The position numbers and the translations under genes are program-made. The notes under the pieces are model-generated. The model did no database searches. It saw only the letters and a list, made by a program, of their open reading frames with translations, and was not told where the DNA came from. From positions 1 through 37,630 of the forward strand of contig CACLSS010000008.1 in the NCBI GenBank assembly GCA_902609645.1: a stretch of DNA of 37,630 nucleotides. The letters run 5' to 3'. The stretch's first letter is position 1. The number at the start of each line of letters is the position of its first letter. Below are positions 1-8,057 of the stretch, piece by piece. Origin of the DNA: an uncultured Pelagibacteraceae bacterium. Lineage in GTDB: Bacteria; Pseudomonadota; Alphaproteobacteria; Pelagibacterales; Pelagibacteraceae.

Positions 1-1041
1 TTAAATTTTTTCCATCCCGAAAATAAATTATTGGGTAAAAAAATTCACGAATATAATGAGATTGAAGTATACGAATCTAAAGATAAAAATGGATTTGGAT
101 TTTATAGGGGATTAAAACGTGTAGACATAAAAGATATCCCGGTAATAATTAATATTAAAAAACCCTATACAGCATTAGAAAAAAGAACAAAGTTTGATAG
201 AGATAGAAATGCGTTTTCAGATAAACTCCAAAGCACATTTTTTTCAATTTTTTCTAGATCTGGTTTTTACTCAATGGAACTAAATGAGGCTATTTACTTC
301 ATACTACGTAAATCTAAAAAAGTATGGAAAAAAGGCCATCCTTTACTTTCAGCAATTGCATCTCATAGCTATTCTCGTTTGAAGGATGACCCTGAAATGC
401 AAAGTATTTTTGGAAAAGAATATATTAGCGAGTCTAAATTTAGATATTCTTCCTCAATTAGTTGGTCCGATTGGTATTCTACATCCACGCAGGGCTATAT
501 TTTAAAAAGAGATAAAAAACAAAAGAAAAATAAAATCATGTTACCATCTTACTTCTCTGCTTTTGGCGTCGAAAGTAGCCTAGACGCTTTTTTAAGAAAC
601 AAAAAAAATAGTGAAAATAGAATTAAAAACGCTAAAACCAATAATCTTTCAAAAAAACAACAAGCTTCAGTAAATTTTTGTTTTAAAGCAATAAAAGAAA
701 TTTCACCAAGTTTTTCAAAACTTTTTGATACAAGTGAAGAAGAAAATCTTTATGAAGTTAAATTTAAAAGTATTAAATGTAGAGACTTGTTAGGGCAACT
801 AAAAGATGATTCAAGTACTTATAATAATAAACTTGTTTATCTTCATGAGAATTTATTTAAATCTTCTTTTGGCAAAATGCTTTCAACTTTCATGCATGAA
901 CTTGGTCACTCAACAGGAAGTAGAGACGGTGATAGAGAGTTTTCAGATTTGTTGACATATATGCTTGAACAAGCCCTTGATAAAAACTCAAAAGTTAGTA
1001 AATTTTCTAAGCAATGGGAAAAGGAGTATAGAATACATTAG
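1..1041 (+). CDS. Putative zinc metallopeptidase-like protein with HELGH motif, truncated at left edge
   Basis: The reading frame is open to the left edge of the window, so the true start lies upstream. The TTG at 31 is probably not the start. The clearest signature is HELGH at 895-909, near the C-terminus, in the context FMHELGHSTGSRDGDREF. This is the HExxH zinc-binding and catalytic motif of gluzincin-type metallopeptidases, and the HELGHSTG context resembles the ArdC/ImmA-like class. A downstream acidic residue in DREFSD could be the third zinc ligand. The central part is Lys/Ser/Phe-rich and I recognise no domain in it. The part before residue 60 could be the end of a larger N-terminal domain such as a GHKL ATPase, but that is a guess. 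It is the first visible gene of a tight operon (2-nt gap to the next) with an unknown protein and an RmuC-like protein. A protease acting in DNA metabolism or defence is inference. Confidence 0.6.
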   Translation, partial: LNFFHPENKLLGKKIHEYNEIEVYESKDKNGFGFYRGLKRVDIKDIPVIINIKKPYTALEKRTKFDRDRNAFSDKLQSTFFSIFSRSGFYSMELNEAIYFILRKSKKVWKKGHPLLSAIASHSYSRLKDDPEMQSIFGKEYISESKFRYSSSISWSDWYSTSTQGYILKRDKKQKKNKIMLPSYFSAFGVESSLDAFLRNKKNSENRIKNAKTNNLSKKQQASVNFCFKAIKEISPSFSKLFDTSEEENLYEVKFKSIKCRDLLGQLKDDSSTYNNKLVYLHENLFKSSFGKMLSTFMHELGHSTGSRDGDREFSDLLTYMLEQALDKNSKVSKFSKQWEKEYRIH

Positions 1042-1043
1042 AT

Positions 1044-1631
1044 ATGAATAAACTACCAAGTAATCCACAAGTCCTAGAGAAAAAAGCTTTAGAAAAAGAG
1101 CTTAACGTTGTTGGACAAGGATTAACTTATAAAGAATTAAGAAAAAGGTGGCCTGAACACAGAGAGAAAATTATAAAAAGAGAAATAAAGAGTGGTGGCC
1201 TACTAGACTCCGATGAACTAATTAAATTTTTAAAGGAAAAAGGAGCTCCTATTGATCCGAAAACCAAAAATATTGTTAGGTTTGCAAAAAATAACGGTAT
1301 TAAAATGAAAAAGTTTGGTCGAATAGGTAAAGCTGGTTATGACCCAAATTATTTTTTTAAACCAGATAACGATAAAATAAACGAAATAATTAAAAATTTG
1401 AAAAATAACAATAATTCTTTTCCAGGTAGAAAAGCGCTTCAAGAAAAAAAAAGAGAAATAATAAAAGTATTTAATCAATCTAATCCTAAAGAAGAAAGCA
1501 AAACTTCAATAGCTAAAGAGGTAGAAAAAACCACTAAAGTAAAAACAAATAGAAAATTAGTTAGATCTGTTTTGGAGGATGTAAAATCTAAATCAGAAAT
1601 AAATAAAAAATTAAATAGGACCGTATATTAA
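1044..1631 (+). CDS. Hypothetical basic protein in the HELGH/RmuC operon
   Basis: A 195-residue, very Lys-rich protein that I do not recognise. It has no signal peptide or membrane segment. The N-terminal half looks helical and folded (TYKELRKRWPEHREKI, then a DELIKFLKEKGAPID stretch). The segment from about residue 155 is a low-complexity Lys/Ser/Glu tail. The basic composition would suit nucleic-acid binding, but no helix-turn-helix or zinc motif can be defended. It starts 2 nt after the HELGH gene stops and ends 1 nt before the RmuC-like gene, so the three are almost certainly co-transcribed and probably work together. An antisense ORF inside it is a shadow. Confidence 0.7.
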   Translation: MNKLPSNPQVLEKKALEKELNVVGQGLTYKELRKRWPEHREKIIKREIKSGGLLDSDELIKFLKEKGAPIDPKTKNIVRFAKNNGIKMKKFGRIGKAGYDPNYFFKPDNDKINEIIKNLKNNNNSFPGRKALQEKKREIIKVFNQSNPKEESKTSIAKEVEKTTKVKTNRKLVRSVLEDVKSKSEINKKLNRTVY

Positions 1632-1632
1632 A

Positions 1633-2781
1633 ATGGAAAATTATATTTTAATCTTATTATCAGCTGTTCAAGCAATAATTATTGCAATGTTAATCTTATA
1701 TTTTTTAAAGTTAAGAAAAAATAATGTTGAAAACAATGATATTAGCAATAATCCAGATTTTATAAGATCTGCTGCAGATGTTAAGAATCTAGAAGATAAA
1801 GAAAAAATGTATATTGAAACAATTAAAAATTTAAAAGAAGAAAAAAAAACACAATTAGATTTAATTACCGATGTTAATTCTTATAAAGAAATAAGTGAAA
1901 AATCTATTTCTAATTATAAAGAAGTTGTGAACGACTACAGGGAATTTCATAATAAATTAATTGGAGATTTTAAATTTCAAGGAAACTATAATGAAAAAAA
2001 ACTAAAAGATTTACTTTTAAAAAGCGGAATATCCGAAGGTAAGGGTGGGTTTCAAAAAGCAAAAGGTGAAAAAAATTTTAATTCAGATGGTGATGTAAAA
2101 ACGCAAATTCCAGATTATATAATTTCACTTCCAAACGAGCAGAAAGTAGTAGCTGATTGCAAGGTTTCACTTTCAAATTTTAAAAGTTATTGTAATGAGA
2201 AAGATAAAATTACAAGAGCCAAATATTTAAAAGCACATATTCAATCTGTTCGAAAACATATTCAAGACTTGTCAAAAAAGGATTATACAAGAATTCACAG
2301 CATTAAAAATAATGCATTCAAGTATGTGATATGCTTTATGCCGTTTGACCAAGTATACCTATCAGTTTTAGAACATGATGAAGATATTTTAGATTTTTGC
2401 ATTAAAAATAAAATTTTATTAGCAGGGCCACTTACAATGCTTGCAATTTTGAATAACATTCAAGAGAGTAAAAATCAAATAAAGCAAGTTGAAGAAGTCG
2501 ATAAAATAATTAAGATCGCTGAAGAAGTTTTAGATAAATATTCTAATATTAAAATGAATGTGAAAAATGCCATTTCAAGTTATGGAACCCATCAAAAAAG
2601 CCTAAGAAACTTAATAAAACAGGTTTTTGGTAGCCCTCAAAGTTTAGAAAGTAAATTAAAAAAATTAAAAAATCACGGTGTTTCTGGAAAGGAAATTCCT
2701 AAAATATCAGACGAGGAAACTCAAATAAAAGATTTAGAGGATCCTGAAGAAAATAAGATTATAAAGCTACCAAAAAGTTAA
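1633..2781 (+). CDS. rmuC: RmuC family protein (putative DNA recombination limiting protein)
   Basis: A 382-residue protein. It has one N-terminal membrane segment (about residues 4-24), a coiled-coil-like Lys/Glu-rich stretch to about residue 110, and then the RmuC domain. Family landmarks are PDYIISLPNEQKVVADCKVSLSNF (written in parts: PDYIISLP, then VVADCKVSL), which matches the usual PD-x-x-LP...DSKVSL pattern, and FMPFDQVYLSVLEHD followed by ILLAGPLTMLAIL. RmuC proteins have a restriction-endonuclease-like core and were named for limiting inversions at short inverted repeats in E. coli. The biochemical role is still unclear. The usual Asp-Ser-Lys triplet is Asp-Cys-Lys here. It is the third gene of the tight operon starting at the left edge, and its end overlaps by 4 bp the end of the convergent nuclease gene. 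It could be either housekeeping RmuC or a copy recruited into an accessory system. Confidence 0.85.
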   Translation: MENYILILLSAVQAIIIAMLILYFLKLRKNNVENNDISNNPDFIRSAADVKNLEDKEKMYIETIKNLKEEKKTQLDLITDVNSYKEISEKSISNYKEVVNDYREFHNKLIGDFKFQGNYNEKKLKDLLLKSGISEGKGGFQKAKGEKNFNSDGDVKTQIPDYIISLPNEQKVVADCKVSLSNFKSYCNEKDKITRAKYLKAHIQSVRKHIQDLSKKDYTRIHSIKNNAFKYVICFMPFDQVYLSVLEHDEDILDFCIKNKILLAGPLTMLAILNNIQESKNQIKQVEEVDKIIKIAEEVLDKYSNIKMNVKNAISSYGTHQKSLRNLIKQVFGSPQSLESKLKKLKNHGVSGKEIPKISDEETQIKDLEDPEENKIIKLPKS

Positions 2782-3431
2782 AATTTTTTAAAATATTCAT
2801 TCGTCTTTTCTAAAAAAACTTTCTTAAAGAAGTCTAATTTTTCACCAAACAAATCAAATCTTTGAAACATATAATTTTCTGTTGAAAGTAGAATTATCCC
2901 TTGAGAAATTTTCGTGTTATAAACTTTATCATGTGCCATTATATAAGCGGCTAATTGCAAGAAATAATCATCGCAAAACTTTTCTTGCTTTGGATTATTA
3001 CTTTGTTTGAAATCGATTATTGTTGTCTTAGCATTCATTACTCCTACCAAATCAGTTATCCCAATATAACGTTCTGGATAATGAAGAACTGCCTCCGTTT
3101 TCCAAATTTCCTCTAAGTTGTTCTTCAAACCATTATTAATAATTACTTTTGCCATTTCAAAAGCCTTTTGGTCTTTTTCAGGTTTAAGAATTTCATTTTT
3201 AAGAAATTGCTCTATATATTGATGCATAAAATCACCTCTTTTTGATGCATCAACTTTAACTTTGTTTGCTTCCTCTCTACCAACTTTATCAATCCAATTT
3301 TGAAGAGCTTTTTTTTTCTCCTCAGACATTGTTTCTTTTAGAATTTTTGAAACGGAAGGAATTTTATCGTCATATAAATTTTGAATAATTTTTGTTGAAA
3401 GTGGATATTTAAATTTGTTAACCCATCTCAT
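2778..3431 (-). CDS. MGME1-like PD-(D/E)XK exonuclease
   Basis: A 217-residue protein with the full signature of the MGME1/phage-type single-strand DNA exonucleases of the PD-(D/E)XK fold. The signature is RGDFMHQYIEQFL (His70), a Glu in KTEAVLHY (Glu113), GITDLVGV (Asp127), IIDFKQSNNPK (Asp140, Lys142) and the QLAAYIMA helix (Gln159, Tyr163). The N-terminal PSVSKILKETM is also typical. Human MGME1 processes mitochondrial DNA ends; related proteins occur in alphaproteobacteria and phages. Here it may trim DNA ends in repair or recombination. It converges on the RmuC-like gene with a 4-bp overlap and is divergent from trxA, with about 100 bp between start codons. It could be a chromosomal housekeeping gene or phage-derived; its AT-rich composition does not stand out from its neighbours. 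Confidence 0.85.
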   Translation of the reverse strand: MRWVNKFKYPLSTKIIQNLYDDKIPSVSKILKETMSEEKKKALQNWIDKVGREEANKVKVDASKRGDFMHQYIEQFLKNEILKPEKDQKAFEMAKVIINNGLKNNLEEIWKTEAVLHYPERYIGITDLVGVMNAKTTIIDFKQSNNPKQEKFCDDYFLQLAAYIMAHDKVYNTKISQGIILLSTENYMFQRFDLFGEKLDFFKKVFLEKTNEYFKKF

Positions 3432-3532: not shown

Positions 3533-3847
3533 ATGCCTACAATTACATCTACAGATGATACTTATAAAAAATTAGTTGCAGAGAATAAATTGGTTTTAGT
3601 AGATTTCTGGGCGCCTTGGTGCTCGCCATGCAAGACCCTAACTCCAATATTAGAAACTATAGCTCAGAATTATAAAGAGCTTAAAGTTTTAAAACATAAT
3701 ATCGATGATTTTCCAAACGTTGCGACGGCCGAAAATATTAGATCTATACCCACACTTTATTTATATAAAGACGGCAAGCAGGTTGAGACTATTATTGGCG
3801 CTCTACCTGAAATACAAATCGTAAACATAATAAAAAAGCATCTTTAA
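3533..3847 (+). CDS. trxA: Thioredoxin
   Basis: A 104-residue classical thioredoxin, a cytosolic dithiol-disulfide reductant normally recycled by thioredoxin reductase. The active site is WAPWCSPCK (Cys30, Cys33); Gly of the common WCGPC is Ser here, a tolerated variant. The cis-proline loop SIPTLYLY and the buried Asp in LVDFW are present. Length is standard for the family. It is a single plus-strand gene, divergent from the MGME1-like nuclease and ending 2 bp from the end of folC, so there is no room for a terminator between them. In many alphaproteobacteria trxA sits beside folC, so the location is expected. Confidence 0.95.
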   Translation: MPTITSTDDTYKKLVAENKLVLVDFWAPWCSPCKTLTPILETIAQNYKELKVLKHNIDDFPNVATAENIRSIPTLYLYKDGKQVETIIGALPEIQIVNIIKKHL

Positions 3848-3849
3848 GA

Positions 3850-5106
3850 TTAAATAATTTCCTGTAAATAATAAAAAGATCCTGTGATCAGAAAAACTGC
3901 ATTTTTCTTTTTTTTAATCGATTTAATCGCTTCATTACAATTTTCTGAAATAGTACTTCTAATATTTAATTTTTTCGAAATTTTAAATAAAGTTTCCTTT
4001 GGATATGTATTACTTTGTTTCATATCCACAAAAAAAACTTTTTTAAAATTTTTAAATGGTTTTAAAAAAGACGCGGGGTCTTTTGATGATATCATAGAAA
4101 TAATTGCGTAAAGATCTTTATTTTTATATTTATTTACCAAGGCTGCACACACTGATTTAGAACTTAAAGAATTGTGAGCTCCATCAGCAAATACTAAAGT
4201 TGAATTAGGCAAGTATTTTCTTAACTTTCCAGATTTTATTTCCTGCATTCGACCAGGTATGTTTATTTTTTTAAGACCTCTCTTAATAATTGATAACTTA
4301 ATTCCTTGATCTATTGCAATTTTAATAGCTAAAACAGCATTTTCGTACATAAAATCTCCCATTAAGTTAGAAATTATTTCAAAGTTATGTTCTTTGTCAT
4401 GGTAGAAATATTTACCCTTTTTTCTTTTGAGCCAAAAATCTCTTCCGTAATAAAAACTATTTTTATTTTTTAAGTAGTATCGAATAAATTTTAATGAGTG
4501 AGGGTGTTGTTTTGATACGTAGATCTTTCTTGCTCTTAAAAATGAAGTTTTTTCATAAACAATTTCCTTTAGGGTTTTTAGATTTCCTTCCTGGTTTTTG
4601 AGCCAGTGTAAATGATCAAATAATATTGGACTAATAATATGAATGTCAGGCGAGGGAAATATAGCTCTTATCGCATCTTTCCTGCCCAATAAGCCAAATT
4701 CTGCTAAGGTGTATTGAATATTTTTACTTTTGATGAATTCTGCAAAAGCTAGACAAAGCATTTCAAATTCTGTAAGTCGAATAGGTATTTTATAAATTTT
4801 TTTAAGAATATTTTTTAATTTTAATATACTAATGTTTTTTGAATTAATTTCTATACGTTCTGATATGGATTTAATATGAGGTGAAAATGTTGCAGCATAA
4901 GTATTATTATTTTCAACTAAAATTTTTTTTATTAAATAAAGTATTGAAAACTTTGCTGAAGTCCCGTTACATGTCAAGATTTTTGATTTGGTTTTTTTAT
5001 GCCAATTAATATTCTTTAAGGCTTTTCTAGTCCGTGATAATCCTAAAGAAATTTTTCTATGCTGATTGATTTTTAAAAGTTTTTGTATTGATTTCGTTAT
5101 CGACAT
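3850..5106 (-). CDS. folC: Bifunctional folylpolyglutamate/dihydrofolate synthase, divergent
   Basis: A 418-residue Mur-ligase-family enzyme that adds L-Glu to dihydropteroate or folate using ATP. Recognisable parts are the N-terminal ISLGLSRTRKAL helix, FSPHIKSISERIEIN (usual TSPHL...ERI), EFGLLGRKDA (usual EVGLGGRLDATN), PILFDHLHWL and FADGAHN. The ATP loop is unusual: residues 47-54 read NGTSAKFS where the family has GTNGKGS. The Lys and final Ser remain, but both glycines around the Lys are replaced. The catalytic-loop Asn after GRxDA is Arg. It ends the 13-gene minus-strand run and its start overlaps accD by 50 bp. That overlap is kept because the N-terminal helix it encodes matches the family. 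Weakened activity or a changed substrate is possible. Confidence 0.85.
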   Translation of the reverse strand: MSITKSIQKLLKINQHRKISLGLSRTRKALKNINWHKKTKSKILTCNGTSAKFSILYLIKKILVENNNTYAATFSPHIKSISERIEINSKNISILKLKNILKKIYKIPIRLTEFEMLCLAFAEFIKSKNIQYTLAEFGLLGRKDAIRAIFPSPDIHIISPILFDHLHWLKNQEGNLKTLKEIVYEKTSFLRARKIYVSKQHPHSLKFIRYYLKNKNSFYYGRDFWLKRKKGKYFYHDKEHNFEIISNLMGDFMYENAVLAIKIAIDQGIKLSIIKRGLKKINIPGRMQEIKSGKLRKYLPNSTLVFADGAHNSLSSKSVCAALVNKYKNKDLYAIISMISSKDPASFLKPFKNFKKVFFVDMKQSNTYPKETLFKISKKLNIRSTISENCNEAIKSIKKKKNAVFLITGSFYYLQEII

Positions 5107-5998
5107 CGCCAGAATCTGATATAGCCTGAGTTTCTTTTTTCTTCAACAAAATTTGTAATAATTTTATAATTGTGCTTCTCAAATATTTTCTCTCAACCAC
5201 CATATCAATCATCCCACTGTGTTCTAAGTGCCATTCAGTTTCTTGAAAGGACTTAGGAAGCGTTTCGCGTACCGTATCTTTTATGACACGGGCCCCGGCA
5301 AATCCCACCGTCGCGCCGGGCTCTCCAATAGATATATCACCTAAACTTGCAAATGAGGCCGTTACGCCACCCGATGTTGGGTGAGTAAGAACAACAATAT
5401 ATGGAATATTATTTCTTTTTAATTCGCTTACCGCCAATGTTGTGCGGGTCATTTGTGAAAGGGCTAAAAGACTCTCTTGCATCCGCGCGCCACCACTAGC
5501 ACTAAAAACTATGAAAGGTGTTTTGTTTTTAATAGCGTATGCCGCACCCTCAACAAATGCATGTCCACTATTAATTGATAGAGAGCCCCCAATAAAGCTA
5601 AAAGACATCGCTGCACATGTCACCTTCATACCTTCTAATTTACCATGAGCAACTAAGATCGAGTCAGATTGATTTGTTTTTCTCCTTGCCTCTTTTAATT
5701 GGTCCTTATAATTTTTTTTTGCTTTAAAATTTAATGGATCATCGTTTAGCGCTATAGGTGGATCTAGAATTTCATAGTGATTGTTATCAAAAAACATGGA
5801 AAAGCGATCTCTAGGTTCTACTTTTGCTCTGTGACTATTGCATTTAGGGCAAACAAATAGATTATCTTTAAATTCATCTTTCATAATTAAAGCTTTACAA
5901 TCAACACAAGTAATCCAGAGAGATTCTTCTAGCTCAGATGATTTCTTTTTAAAAAGTGATTTAATCTTTGGTTTAAGAAAGTTTTTTATCCAATTCAT
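5057..5998 (-). CDS. accD: Acetyl-CoA carboxylase carboxyltransferase subunit beta
   Basis: A 313-residue beta subunit of the carboxyltransferase that transfers CO2 from biotin to acetyl-CoA to make malonyl-CoA for fatty-acid synthesis. The N-terminal zinc ribbon is intact (Cys31, Cys34, Cys50, Cys53; WITCVDCKAL and FVCPKCNSH). The crotonase-fold body has FSASGGARMQESLLALSQM, HPTSGGVTASFASLGD and EPGATVGFAGARVI. Its partner accA is in this window at 29769. The start overlaps the trpA stop by 4 bp (ATGA). The C-terminus carries about 25 polar residues that overlap the folC start. Sequence motifs are standard, in contrast to its trpA and folC neighbours. Confidence 0.95.
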   Translation of the reverse strand: MNWIKNFLKPKIKSLFKKKSSELEESLWITCVDCKALIMKDEFKDNLFVCPKCNSHRAKVEPRDRFSMFFDNNHYEILDPPIALNDDPLNFKAKKNYKDQLKEARRKTNQSDSILVAHGKLEGMKVTCAAMSFSFIGGSLSINSGHAFVEGAAYAIKNKTPFIVFSASGGARMQESLLALSQMTRTTLAVSELKRNNIPYIVVLTHPTSGGVTASFASLGDISIGEPGATVGFAGARVIKDTVRETLPKSFQETEWHLEHSGMIDMVVERKYLRSTIIKLLQILLKKKETQAISDSGDVDNEINTKTFKNQSA

Positions 5999-6816
5999 TT
6001 AGTGCTTTCTGATAATTGTTTAACATATTTCGCGACAAATTTCGCCAATTTTGGGGCAGAAAGCCTTCTTTCATGACCCTCCTTAATTTTATTAACAATA
6101 TTTGATCCGCAAATAACTACATCAGCATATTTTGATACTTGTTTTACTTGTTTAGGGGTTTTTATTCCAAAACCTACACCAGTAGGCATATTTTTTGAAT
6201 ATTTTTTTACCTTGTACACTAATTTTTTAACATTATTTAAATTTACATTTTTTGAACCTGTTAATCCTGCATATGTAGTAATATAAATGAAAGAATTTTT
6301 AGTATTTTTAATACTTTGTTGAATAAACTTTTCACTATTTGTTGGAGAAATAATTTTTGTATATCCAATACCCTTTTTTGAAAGACCGTTAAGAAGAATT
6401 TTTTCTTCTGGAGAATTAAGATTATTATCAACTATTATAACACCTGCTATACCTATAGAAGCAGAACTTTTTATAAATTTTTTTACTCCATAGACAACTA
6501 TTGGATTTAAATATGTCATTATAACAAAGCAGGTATCATTGTTAGTTTCTTTAATAACCTCCTTTATGAGCTTAAAAGTTTTAGTCATATTCATACCTGA
6601 TTTAATTGCACGATCATTTGCCTCCATAATTATTGGAGAGTCAGACGTACTGGTGGAGAAACTTTGGCCAGCTTCAATAATATGGCAGTGCTTAGTCATT
6701 TCTTTCATAATTGCTTTTGAGGAGGCATAGTTAGGGTCACCACTTGTTACAAAACCACAAAATGCTGATTTTTTTTTTATTTTCAAATTTTTGAAGAGTT
6801 TGTTTAGTTTACTCAT
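5995..6816 (-). CDS. trpA: Tryptophan synthase alpha-like protein, divergent active-site loops
   Basis: A 273-residue TIM barrel homologous to TrpA, which splits indole-3-glycerol phosphate to indole and G3P. The family start GFVTSGDPNY is clear. Aligned with Salmonella TrpA, the catalytic Glu49 and Asp60 equivalents remain (Glu48, Asp59). The phosphate cradle also remains (GLTG 184-187, GFGI 215-218, CGSNIV from 236). Loop 2, normally PFSDPxADGP, is SFSTSTSDSP, and the usual PDLPPEE loop is DNNLNSPEE. These regions shape the indole-glycerol site and contact TrpB. The 4-bp overlaps with trpB and accD show co-translation with an equally altered TrpB. It may be a fast-evolving TrpA or a TrpA-like partner with another substrate; trpF is absent from this locus. 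The symbol indicates homology, not proven function. Confidence 0.8.
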   Translation of the reverse strand: MSKLNKLFKNLKIKKKSAFCGFVTSGDPNYASSKAIMKEMTKHCHIIEAGQSFSTSTSDSPIIMEANDRAIKSGMNMTKTFKLIKEVIKETNNDTCFVIMTYLNPIVVYGVKKFIKSSASIGIAGVIIVDNNLNSPEEKILLNGLSKKGIGYTKIISPTNSEKFIQQSIKNTKNSFIYITTYAGLTGSKNVNLNNVKKLVYKVKKYSKNMPTGVGFGIKTPKQVKQVSKYADVVICGSNIVNKIKEGHERRLSAPKLAKFVAKYVKQLSESTK

Positions 6817-8057
6817 TTATTTTTTTTCATAAATTCCATCATTTGAGCAACATTTGGTTCTCCAGAACCACACAAGTGAATTAAATGATTTTGTTTTGGT
6901 TTTCCTGTTTTCTTAATTTCTCTAATCGCAGCATGAATTACATAGCATGCTTCAATTGCACATATTAATCCAATTTTACGTGCCATCATCATAAATGTTT
7001 TTTTTGCCTCTATATCTGTAGCGGTGAGAAATTTTATTCTGCCAATTGAATGAAGATAAGCCACCTCCGGCCCAATTGATGAAAAATCAAGCCCGCTGGC
7101 CTCCGTGAAGCTGTCAGCAATGTTGCCACCGTTTAATAAGACCTTTGAACGCATACCAAGCAAAACTCCCATCTTGCCCCCACCTGAAATTGTCGCTCCG
7201 TGTTTTCCTGTTTTGATACCTTTGCCCGCACTCTCGACTGCATATAGCTTTACTTTATTAGATTTAATGTATGGATAAGTTATTGATTCGAGATTCGAGC
7301 CGCCACCACAAACTGCAAAAATCGTTGATGGATCTTTACCTGTTAGACTTTTAAATTGCTTTTTTGTTATTCTACCAATGACACTTGCAAACGTTCTAAC
7401 CATAAGTGGATATGGATGTGGACCCGCCACGCTGCCTACTATATACATACTATCTGGCTCACTTTGAAACGCTCGAAGTGCAGCCGCCATGGCGGGCAAA
7501 AGTGACTTCGTTGAATCATGTACCTCAATTATATTTGCACCATGCAGAGCAGAAATATCTTTGTTAATAGCTAATTTCTTAGCATCGTTTGCACCTACGT
7601 AAATATCTAGATCAAGTCCCAGCGCAGCACATGCTGAGGCAACAGCTCTACCATTTTGAAAAGCTCCAGTTTCTGTTAAAACTTTTTTGAAGCCTAAATA
7701 CTTTGCTAATTTACAGCAAGAGTAAGCAGAAATTGGTTTGTGAGAATGATTTGTATGTAAATCAGTTCTTTTTAAAAAGATTTTTCCAACTTTTTTCTCA
7801 CCACCAGCTAATTTTGTAAGTTCTGGACTAAAATGTATTGGTGTATTAACACCAATAAAGGAAAGTAACTCTTCGTTGAGTTCTTTCATAAATTTTTTAT
7901 CTTTAATAGCTTTAAAAAAACCTTCTTGCACTCTTTTAAGGTTAGGAACCAAAAGAGGCGAAATGTACTGTCCTCCATAGCGTTCTTTGTTTTTTTTGTT
8001 TATCCAATAACCATCTTTAGTCGGTGGGTTTAGTTCTTTGAAAGGGTCAATCTTCAT
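6813..8057 (-). CDS. trpB: Tryptophan synthase beta-like PLP enzyme, divergent
   Basis: A 414-residue PLP fold-type II enzyme, unmistakably TrpB-derived: YGGQYISPLLVPNL, LKRTDL, AGPHPYPLMVRTF, CGGGSN (250-255) and SGLDFSSIGPE. The PLP lysine (Lys107, in HSHKPIS), Glu129 (Salmonella Glu109), Asp324 (Asp305) and Glu369 (Glu350) are kept. The carboxylate loop is ETGAFQNG instead of ETGAGQHG (Gly113 to Phe, His115 to Asn). The segment before the PLP Lys, normally HTGAHK, is HTNHSHK. The invariant NNxLGQ after it is lost (PISAYSCC). The C-terminal LSGRGDKD is LCGSGEPN. These changes sit on substrate binding and domain closure, while cofactor binding is kept. It is the upstream partner of trpA (4-bp overlap). 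PLP beta-replacement chemistry is likely; tryptophan as the product is uncertain. Confidence 0.8.
   Translation of the reverse strand: MKIDPFKELNPPTKDGYWINKKNKERYGGQYISPLLVPNLKRVQEGFFKAIKDKKFMKELNEELLSFIGVNTPIHFSPELTKLAGGEKKVGKIFLKRTDLHTNHSHKPISAYSCCKLAKYLGFKKVLTETGAFQNGRAVASACAALGLDLDIYVGANDAKKLAINKDISALHGANIIEVHDSTKSLLPAMAAALRAFQSEPDSMYIVGSVAGPHPYPLMVRTFASVIGRITKKQFKSLTGKDPSTIFAVCGGGSNLESITYPYIKSNKVKLYAVESAGKGIKTGKHGATISGGGKMGVLLGMRSKVLLNGGNIADSFTEASGLDFSSIGPEVAYLHSIGRIKFLTATDIEAKKTFMMMARKIGLICAIEACYVIHAAIREIKKTGKPKQNHLIHLCGSGEPNVAQMMEFMKKNK

Follow-up and report, generated by a model that had tools for sequence, protein, structure and literature searches.

The window, the whole 37,630-nt stretch of DNA analyzed here, starts at base 1 of a contig (G000:C8, G000 denoting the window genome), so its first gene is truncated at the 5′ end. 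Three forward-strand reading frames separated by gaps of 2 and 1 nt, described in an earlier sequence-only reading, were found again at 1 to 1041, 1044 to 1631, and 1633 to 2781. The first, open at its 5′ end, encodes the last 346 aa of a protein that we name HZ, and covers the end of a GHKL/transducer part, a helical part, and a HELGH (HExxH) motif near the C terminus. The second encodes mid, a basic protein of 195 aa that is often but not always part of the island described below, and the third an RmuC-family protein of 382 aa. Convergent with the RmuC gene and overlapping it by 4 nt is a reverse-strand gene (2778 to 3431) for a PD-(D/E)XK nuclease matching PF12705 (9.3e-6) and the phrog_298 exonuclease (9e-36). 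Next comes trxA (thioredoxin-like; 3533 to 3847, forward strand), which forms the fixed edge of a variable site in the order. On the reverse strand beyond it lie four genes that, by similarity to relatives and by gene order, we take to be homologs of folC (3850 to 5106), accD (5057 to 5998), trpA (5995 to 6816), and trpB (6813 to 8057).

When the first 2781 bases were shuffled 500 times, the longest frame had a median length of 69 aa and a maximum of 168 aa. Between the window genome and the same-genus genome G018, HZ, mid, and RmuC showed dN/dS of 0.04 to 0.12, a rough bound only, with dS near saturation, and the three genes are under purifying selection. The far shorter shuffled frames and the low dN/dS argue that the three frames did not arise by chance. 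The N-terminal 121 aa of HZ in the window genome were found at the end of contig C28, and the intact gene in G018 encodes 534 aa; set against G018, some 200 nt are missing between C28 and C8. The leftward extension that the sequence-only reading had proposed was carried out, and the unit continues past HZ with a gene of 180 aa, a divergent one of ~480 aa, a gene resembling ExoI, and one of 94 aa, as far as a PIF1 helicase. The ~480-aa gene has no Pfam match, and its assignment as S24/LexA-like, which came from likeness by eye, was dropped; assignment of the 94-aa gene as a membrane protein was unsupported (hydropathy 0.76 to 1.17).

Full-length HZ, of ~534 aa, combines a GHKL (Hsp90-type) ATPase module with a following HExxH motif. 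In an alignment of 11 homologs, the HExxH motif and a subsequent DG.R.FSD motif are invariant (11 of 11), and an N-box, (E/D)xxxNxxD, and a GxxGEG motif are kept in all 10 proteins that have an N terminus; the classic DxGxG box is not evident by eye. A structural model built from three sequences was poor (pLDDT 43) and was discarded. The model built from the 11-sequence alignment had a mean pLDDT of 77.1 and a pTM of 0.66; its residues 25 to 191 superimposed on the Hsp90 N-domain of HtpG (Z 11.2, rmsd 2.6, 135 aligned), and residues 19 to 324 on TRAP1 (Z 10.6, rmsd 4.7, 227 aligned). Motifs and predicted fold agree in assigning HZ to the GHKL ATPase (Bergerat) fold. The HExxH segment of the model is of low confidence, so the putative protease activity of HZ rests on the motif. 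No zincin or other Pfam family scored above cut-off with HZ (DUF4344 reached 16.6 bits, under its cut-off of 29.6), no M15 match was found, and no PADLOC model matched. The best hit to HZ in a sequence search of solved structures had E 0.013 and was not convincing, and no convincing match came up for mid or RmuC. The sequence-only reading had called the first gene a putative zinc protease; the HELGH motif is present, but the gene is a fragment of a larger one whose product has an ATPase module.

A Foldseek search of viral models with HZ returned 58 matches at E up to 0.001, phage RIIA proteins included, and 7 of the 11 HZ proteins matched phrog_6077 (best 2.6e-10). Pseudomonas phage Ab19 gp34 (363 aa) has the GHKL part in common with HZ. 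No HZ relative was found in viral contigs (three scans) or in plasmids; a phage sequence search with HZ gave only a weak match, covering 20% and found in two records of one phage, and the same search with the HZ protein of G609 gave none. A phage origin of HZ was therefore unsupported by these searches. A class-wide search of 385 genomes recovered HZ only from the window genome, and a short-pattern search of genome contigs, an insensitive method, only from G018 and G067 records.

The window RmuC matched PF02646 with 160.8 bits (cut-off 26; E 5.2e-47), which places it in the RmuC family, and near its N terminus it has a single strongly hydrophobic segment (mean hydropathy 2.73 over the 19 residues that start at residue 5); its description as a membrane-anchored RmuC-like protein thus stands. 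A PD-(D/E)XK motif, PDYIISLPNEQKVVADCK, begins at residue 160. The PD...DxK signature kept here is absent from the native RmuC of same-genus G016 and from the RmuC neighbors of HZ in G493 and G627. In the native RmuC of the window genus and in those of G493 and G627, it is replaced by VEF...VDSHW or VDAHW (L064:6539-7570, L092:3128-4156, L093:12718-13707). As judged from these residues, RmuC proteins lacking PD...DxK may be inactive as nucleases, and their presence beside HZ in G493 and G627 tells against the view that every RmuC under HZ control is an active nuclease. In G493 and G627, HZ and RmuC are separated by a gene for an ARPP-1 domain protein (L092:2176-3126 and L093:11209-12186); the G493 copy matched at 2.3e-57, and the G627 copy is named only by position and likeness of its start. 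Outside the trxA locus, G602 (L109) encodes an RmuC with 52% identity to the G493 protein close to genes for Z1 and cytosine methylase; it is a second RmuC in a defense-like setting.

The mid protein, noted before as lysine-rich and unrecognized, does have 25% K+R residues and no Pfam match above cut-off, leaving its fold unassigned by Pfam. Among 397 genomes, 12 gave strong mid matches (E<1e-50), always at trxA; 7 of these have HZ and 5 do not, and the count omits weak matches in 45 further genomes. Those weak mid-profile matches (E 7e-6 to 9.5e-4) fall in frames of ~814 to 877 aa that appear to be one long conserved protein, and mid and this protein possibly have a small domain in common. 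The PD-(D/E)XK nuclease, formerly read as an adjoining MGME1-like nuclease, is confirmed as a nuclease but is accessory, being found in only 3 of 61 relatives; in genus g3 it sits between RmuC and ExoI. Another protein that recurs in the island is one of ~1120 aa with Cas4-like, RNase H-like, and helicase parts (L086:3127-6501; similar in G715, G530, G635, G732, G511, and G491).

We read 33 trxA loci across the Pelagibacterales (SAR11), picked by gene matches rather than randomly. RmuC is encoded in 32 of the 33 and a full-length ExoI-like exonuclease in 31; in G635 neither RmuC nor ExoI is found in the stretch read, and in G074 ExoI is in pieces. Across 101 relatives, an ExoI-like gene is found in 89, and most relatives hold only the native rmuC-exoI pair beside trxA. 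A search of the 101 relatives detected HZ in 3, and a search of 397 genomes from the order detected it in 10, amounting to 11 distinct genomes from three genera and two families. In all 11 it is located at the trxA locus (trxA being frameshifted in G722), just upstream of RmuC and read in the same direction. Adjacent genes from HZ through RmuC are spaced by −25 to +29 nt, and HZ is found across three RmuC backgrounds. This constant pairing contrasts with the fate of the three-gene system envisaged in the sequence-only reading: 17 of the 33 trxA loci encode RmuC with neither HZ nor mid, the very arrangement that reading had named as refuting it; mid occurs without HZ in 5 of its 12 genomes; and HZ occurs without mid in G067, G585, and G722. 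Because the three genes do not stay together across trxA loci, a three-gene unit as such is rejected.

The ~480-aa gene is divergent from the RmuC operon in eleven loci. In quick trees with long branches, above all that of G067, the RmuC and ExoI proteins of these 11 cassettes form single clades (SH-aLRT 97 and 100, respectively) that span the window genus, g1, and genus g3 and exclude the native pairs found in the two genera. HZ identities agree with cassette exchange between g1 and g3: the G018 protein is 59% identical to that of G609 (g3), whereas G609 and G493, both g3, are only 50% identical. By these comparisons, a cassette common to another genus has taken the place of the native rmuC-exoI pair in the window lineage. 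The sequence-only reading had placed the genes at the edge of a conserved housekeeping region, but the flank is itself variable. The window TrpB and TrpA are 63% and 53% identical, respectively, to those of G511 (g3) and only 24 to 28% identical to those of same-genus G016, G006, and G029, compared with 78 to 81% for the adjoining pyrF; when complete genomes were searched, trpB alone was matched at full length. By these identities, trpA and trpB of the window are alleles foreign to the genus, and flanking genes have been exchanged too. The catalytic motifs of the window trpA and trpB products differ from the textbook motifs. In G067 (L038 7158-11655), trpB, trpA, accD, folC, and trxA are only 43 to 54% identical to those of genus mates, with the mates' own controls at 95 to 99%.

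Selected frames in the 33 loci were scanned for defense genes, and matches to known defense genes were found at the trxA site in 5 of the 33 (G067, G585, G038, G033, and G715). A sixth locus, G530, has the same genes as G715, as recognized by length and sequence start. Immediately upstream of the native rmuC-exoI pair of G038 are DrmA and DrmB matches (4.9e-221 and 5.8e-85; L069 2-4749), the DISARM core. At or beside the trxA site are MzaB and MzaC matches in G585 (2.1e-28 and 1.1e-107), Z1, HATPase, and cytosine methylase genes in G067, SspD and PbeA matches in G033 (4.7e-119 and 2.6e-26), and type IIG-like restriction-modification genes in G715. Z1 was detected in 17 of 317 genomes, and 3 of the 17 have it at the trxA locus: G067, G585, and G494, the last placed by gene order, with trxA outside the stretch read. 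The remaining Z1 genes are elsewhere or on stretches too short to place. Under a simple random model, the probability of at least three Z1 genes falling in a 40-kb window is 0.018. The trxA site thus takes up defense genes above expectation, as a hotspot of modest strength that is not the main home of the Z1 family.

The closest known counterpart of the HZ-RmuC pair is Shield. In Shield II, the membrane RmuC nuclease ShdA is accompanied by an M15-like peptidase, ShdB, which interacts with ShdA and lowers its level; in Shield II and III, ShdB is encoded downstream of ShdA, and phage protection by ShdA alone counts as a feature of these subtypes. That report describes Shield only from Pseudomonas (PMC10270631). 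The locus resembles Shield II/III in encoding a membrane-anchored RmuC together with a putative metallopeptidase, beside known defense genes, and the window RmuC has the ShdA arrangement of an N-terminal transmembrane stretch and an RmuC domain, a likeness drawn by domain and hydropathy only. HZ differs from ShdB in being encoded upstream of RmuC, in combining GHKL and HExxH, and in having no M15 match; the locus also differs in its Pelagibacterales host and in including ExoI-like and other genes. Defense-associated reverse transcriptase (DRT) systems, represented in PADLOC by the RTasSbcB and RTasRmuC models, involve the same two nuclease families, but ExoI and RmuC of the native, housekeeping type hit these models as well, and the labels were discarded as proof of defense; they carry no weight because native ExoI scores above cassette ExoI. 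No reverse transcriptase was found among the G018 island proteins scanned, with not every frame covered in both libraries, so the locus is not assigned to DRT. Mza likewise has a GHKL ATPase in a multigene unit, and G067 and G585 have Mza-like genes at the trxA site, but HZ matches no PADLOC model, MzaB and MzaC included, and no Z1 protein was found in the window genome (82% complete). The phage GHKL proteins (phrog_6077 and RIIA) resemble HZ in GHKL module and predicted fold, and differ in that Ab19 gp34, the single phage relative examined, lacks HExxH, whereas HZ is chromosomal and paired with RmuC.

With some hesitation, and by analogy with Shield II, we favor the reading that the locus is a mobile, probably defensive nuclease cassette in which HZ acts as an ATP-gated metalloprotease controlling a membrane RmuC. 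The window represents one end of a horizontally moving cassette at the variable site beside trxA, comprising its own membrane-anchored RmuC with an intact nuclease motif, an ExoI-like DEDD exonuclease, the ~480-aa protein, small proteins, the PIF1 helicase, the PD-(D/E)XK nuclease, and HZ. ATP binding and hydrolysis by the GHKL part would gate the putative protease of HZ. Shield II provides a precedent, by analogy with which HZ would regulate the amount or the release of the RmuC made from the same message, RmuC being its presumed substrate. On activation by a putative trigger, RmuC and the exonucleases would destroy invading, probably phage, DNA. The linkage of HZ to RmuC in 11 of 11 genomes, the horizontal sharing, and the defense genes at the site thus sustain the earlier idea of an undescribed defense-type unit of tethered RmuC and protease, though not with three genes. 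A stronger version of this idea, which we regard as rather unlikely, is that HZ is a new defense switch, an Hsp90-type ATPase clamp of the kind common to phage RIIA/phrog_6077 proteins fused to a zinc protease, which would sense infection and release or activate the membrane-tethered RmuC in exchangeable cassettes.

The near-universal presence of RmuC and ExoI at the trxA site (32 and 31 of 33 loci, with the ExoI-like gene in 89 of 101 relatives) fits a repair core and argues against a defensive reading, as does the higher score of native than of cassette ExoI on the same model. The locus might then serve housekeeping recombination and repair, RmuC and ExoI acting on DNA of the cell itself, with HZ, mid, and the remaining genes as lineage-specific repair regulators that have no antiphage role. 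We consider this somewhat unlikely, given that the additional genes occur patchily in few genomes and have been exchanged horizontally and that defense genes occupy the same site in some relatives. Peptidases of the IrrE/ImmA type derepress genes by cleaving a regulator, and HZ could similarly sense damage or infection and cleave mid, the ~480-aa protein, or an XRE-type HTH protein of G067, derepressing the nuclease genes. An HExxH protein beside DNA-binding-like partners, the basic mid and the XRE-type protein (HTH_3 3.9e-4, below cut-off), would suit such a switch, but it is decidedly unlikely: no regulator is common to all 11 HZ loci, mid being missing from three and the XRE gene known only in G067, whereas RmuC always adjoins. 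It is highly improbable that HZ came from a phage as a gene of the RIIA/phrog_6077 kind and was retained by chance or domesticated as an antiphage or counterdefense protein, with no working tie to RmuC. The phrog_6077 and RIIA matches and the GHKL part of Ab19 gp34 speak for such an origin; against it are the dN/dS of HZ itself (0.04 to 0.09 between G000 and G018, dS near saturation), its invariable position beside RmuC, the lack of HExxH in gp34, and the absence of any match in the three viral-contig scans.

A literature search, with subscription journals mostly outside its coverage, found no report on RmuC in Pelagibacter, on a GHKL-protease partner of RmuC, or on this locus. The pairing of RmuC with a peptidase is already known from Shield. 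SAR11 bacteria are among the commonest in the ocean, have very small genomes, and live under constant phage pressure. If the cassette reading is correct, the trxA locus would be a chromosomal site at which SAR11 exchange nuclease and defense modules, an ATP-gated protease would be an added partner of RmuC nucleases outside Pseudomonas Shield, and HZ would connect phage GHKL proteins to a bacterial defense protein in a way that can be tested.
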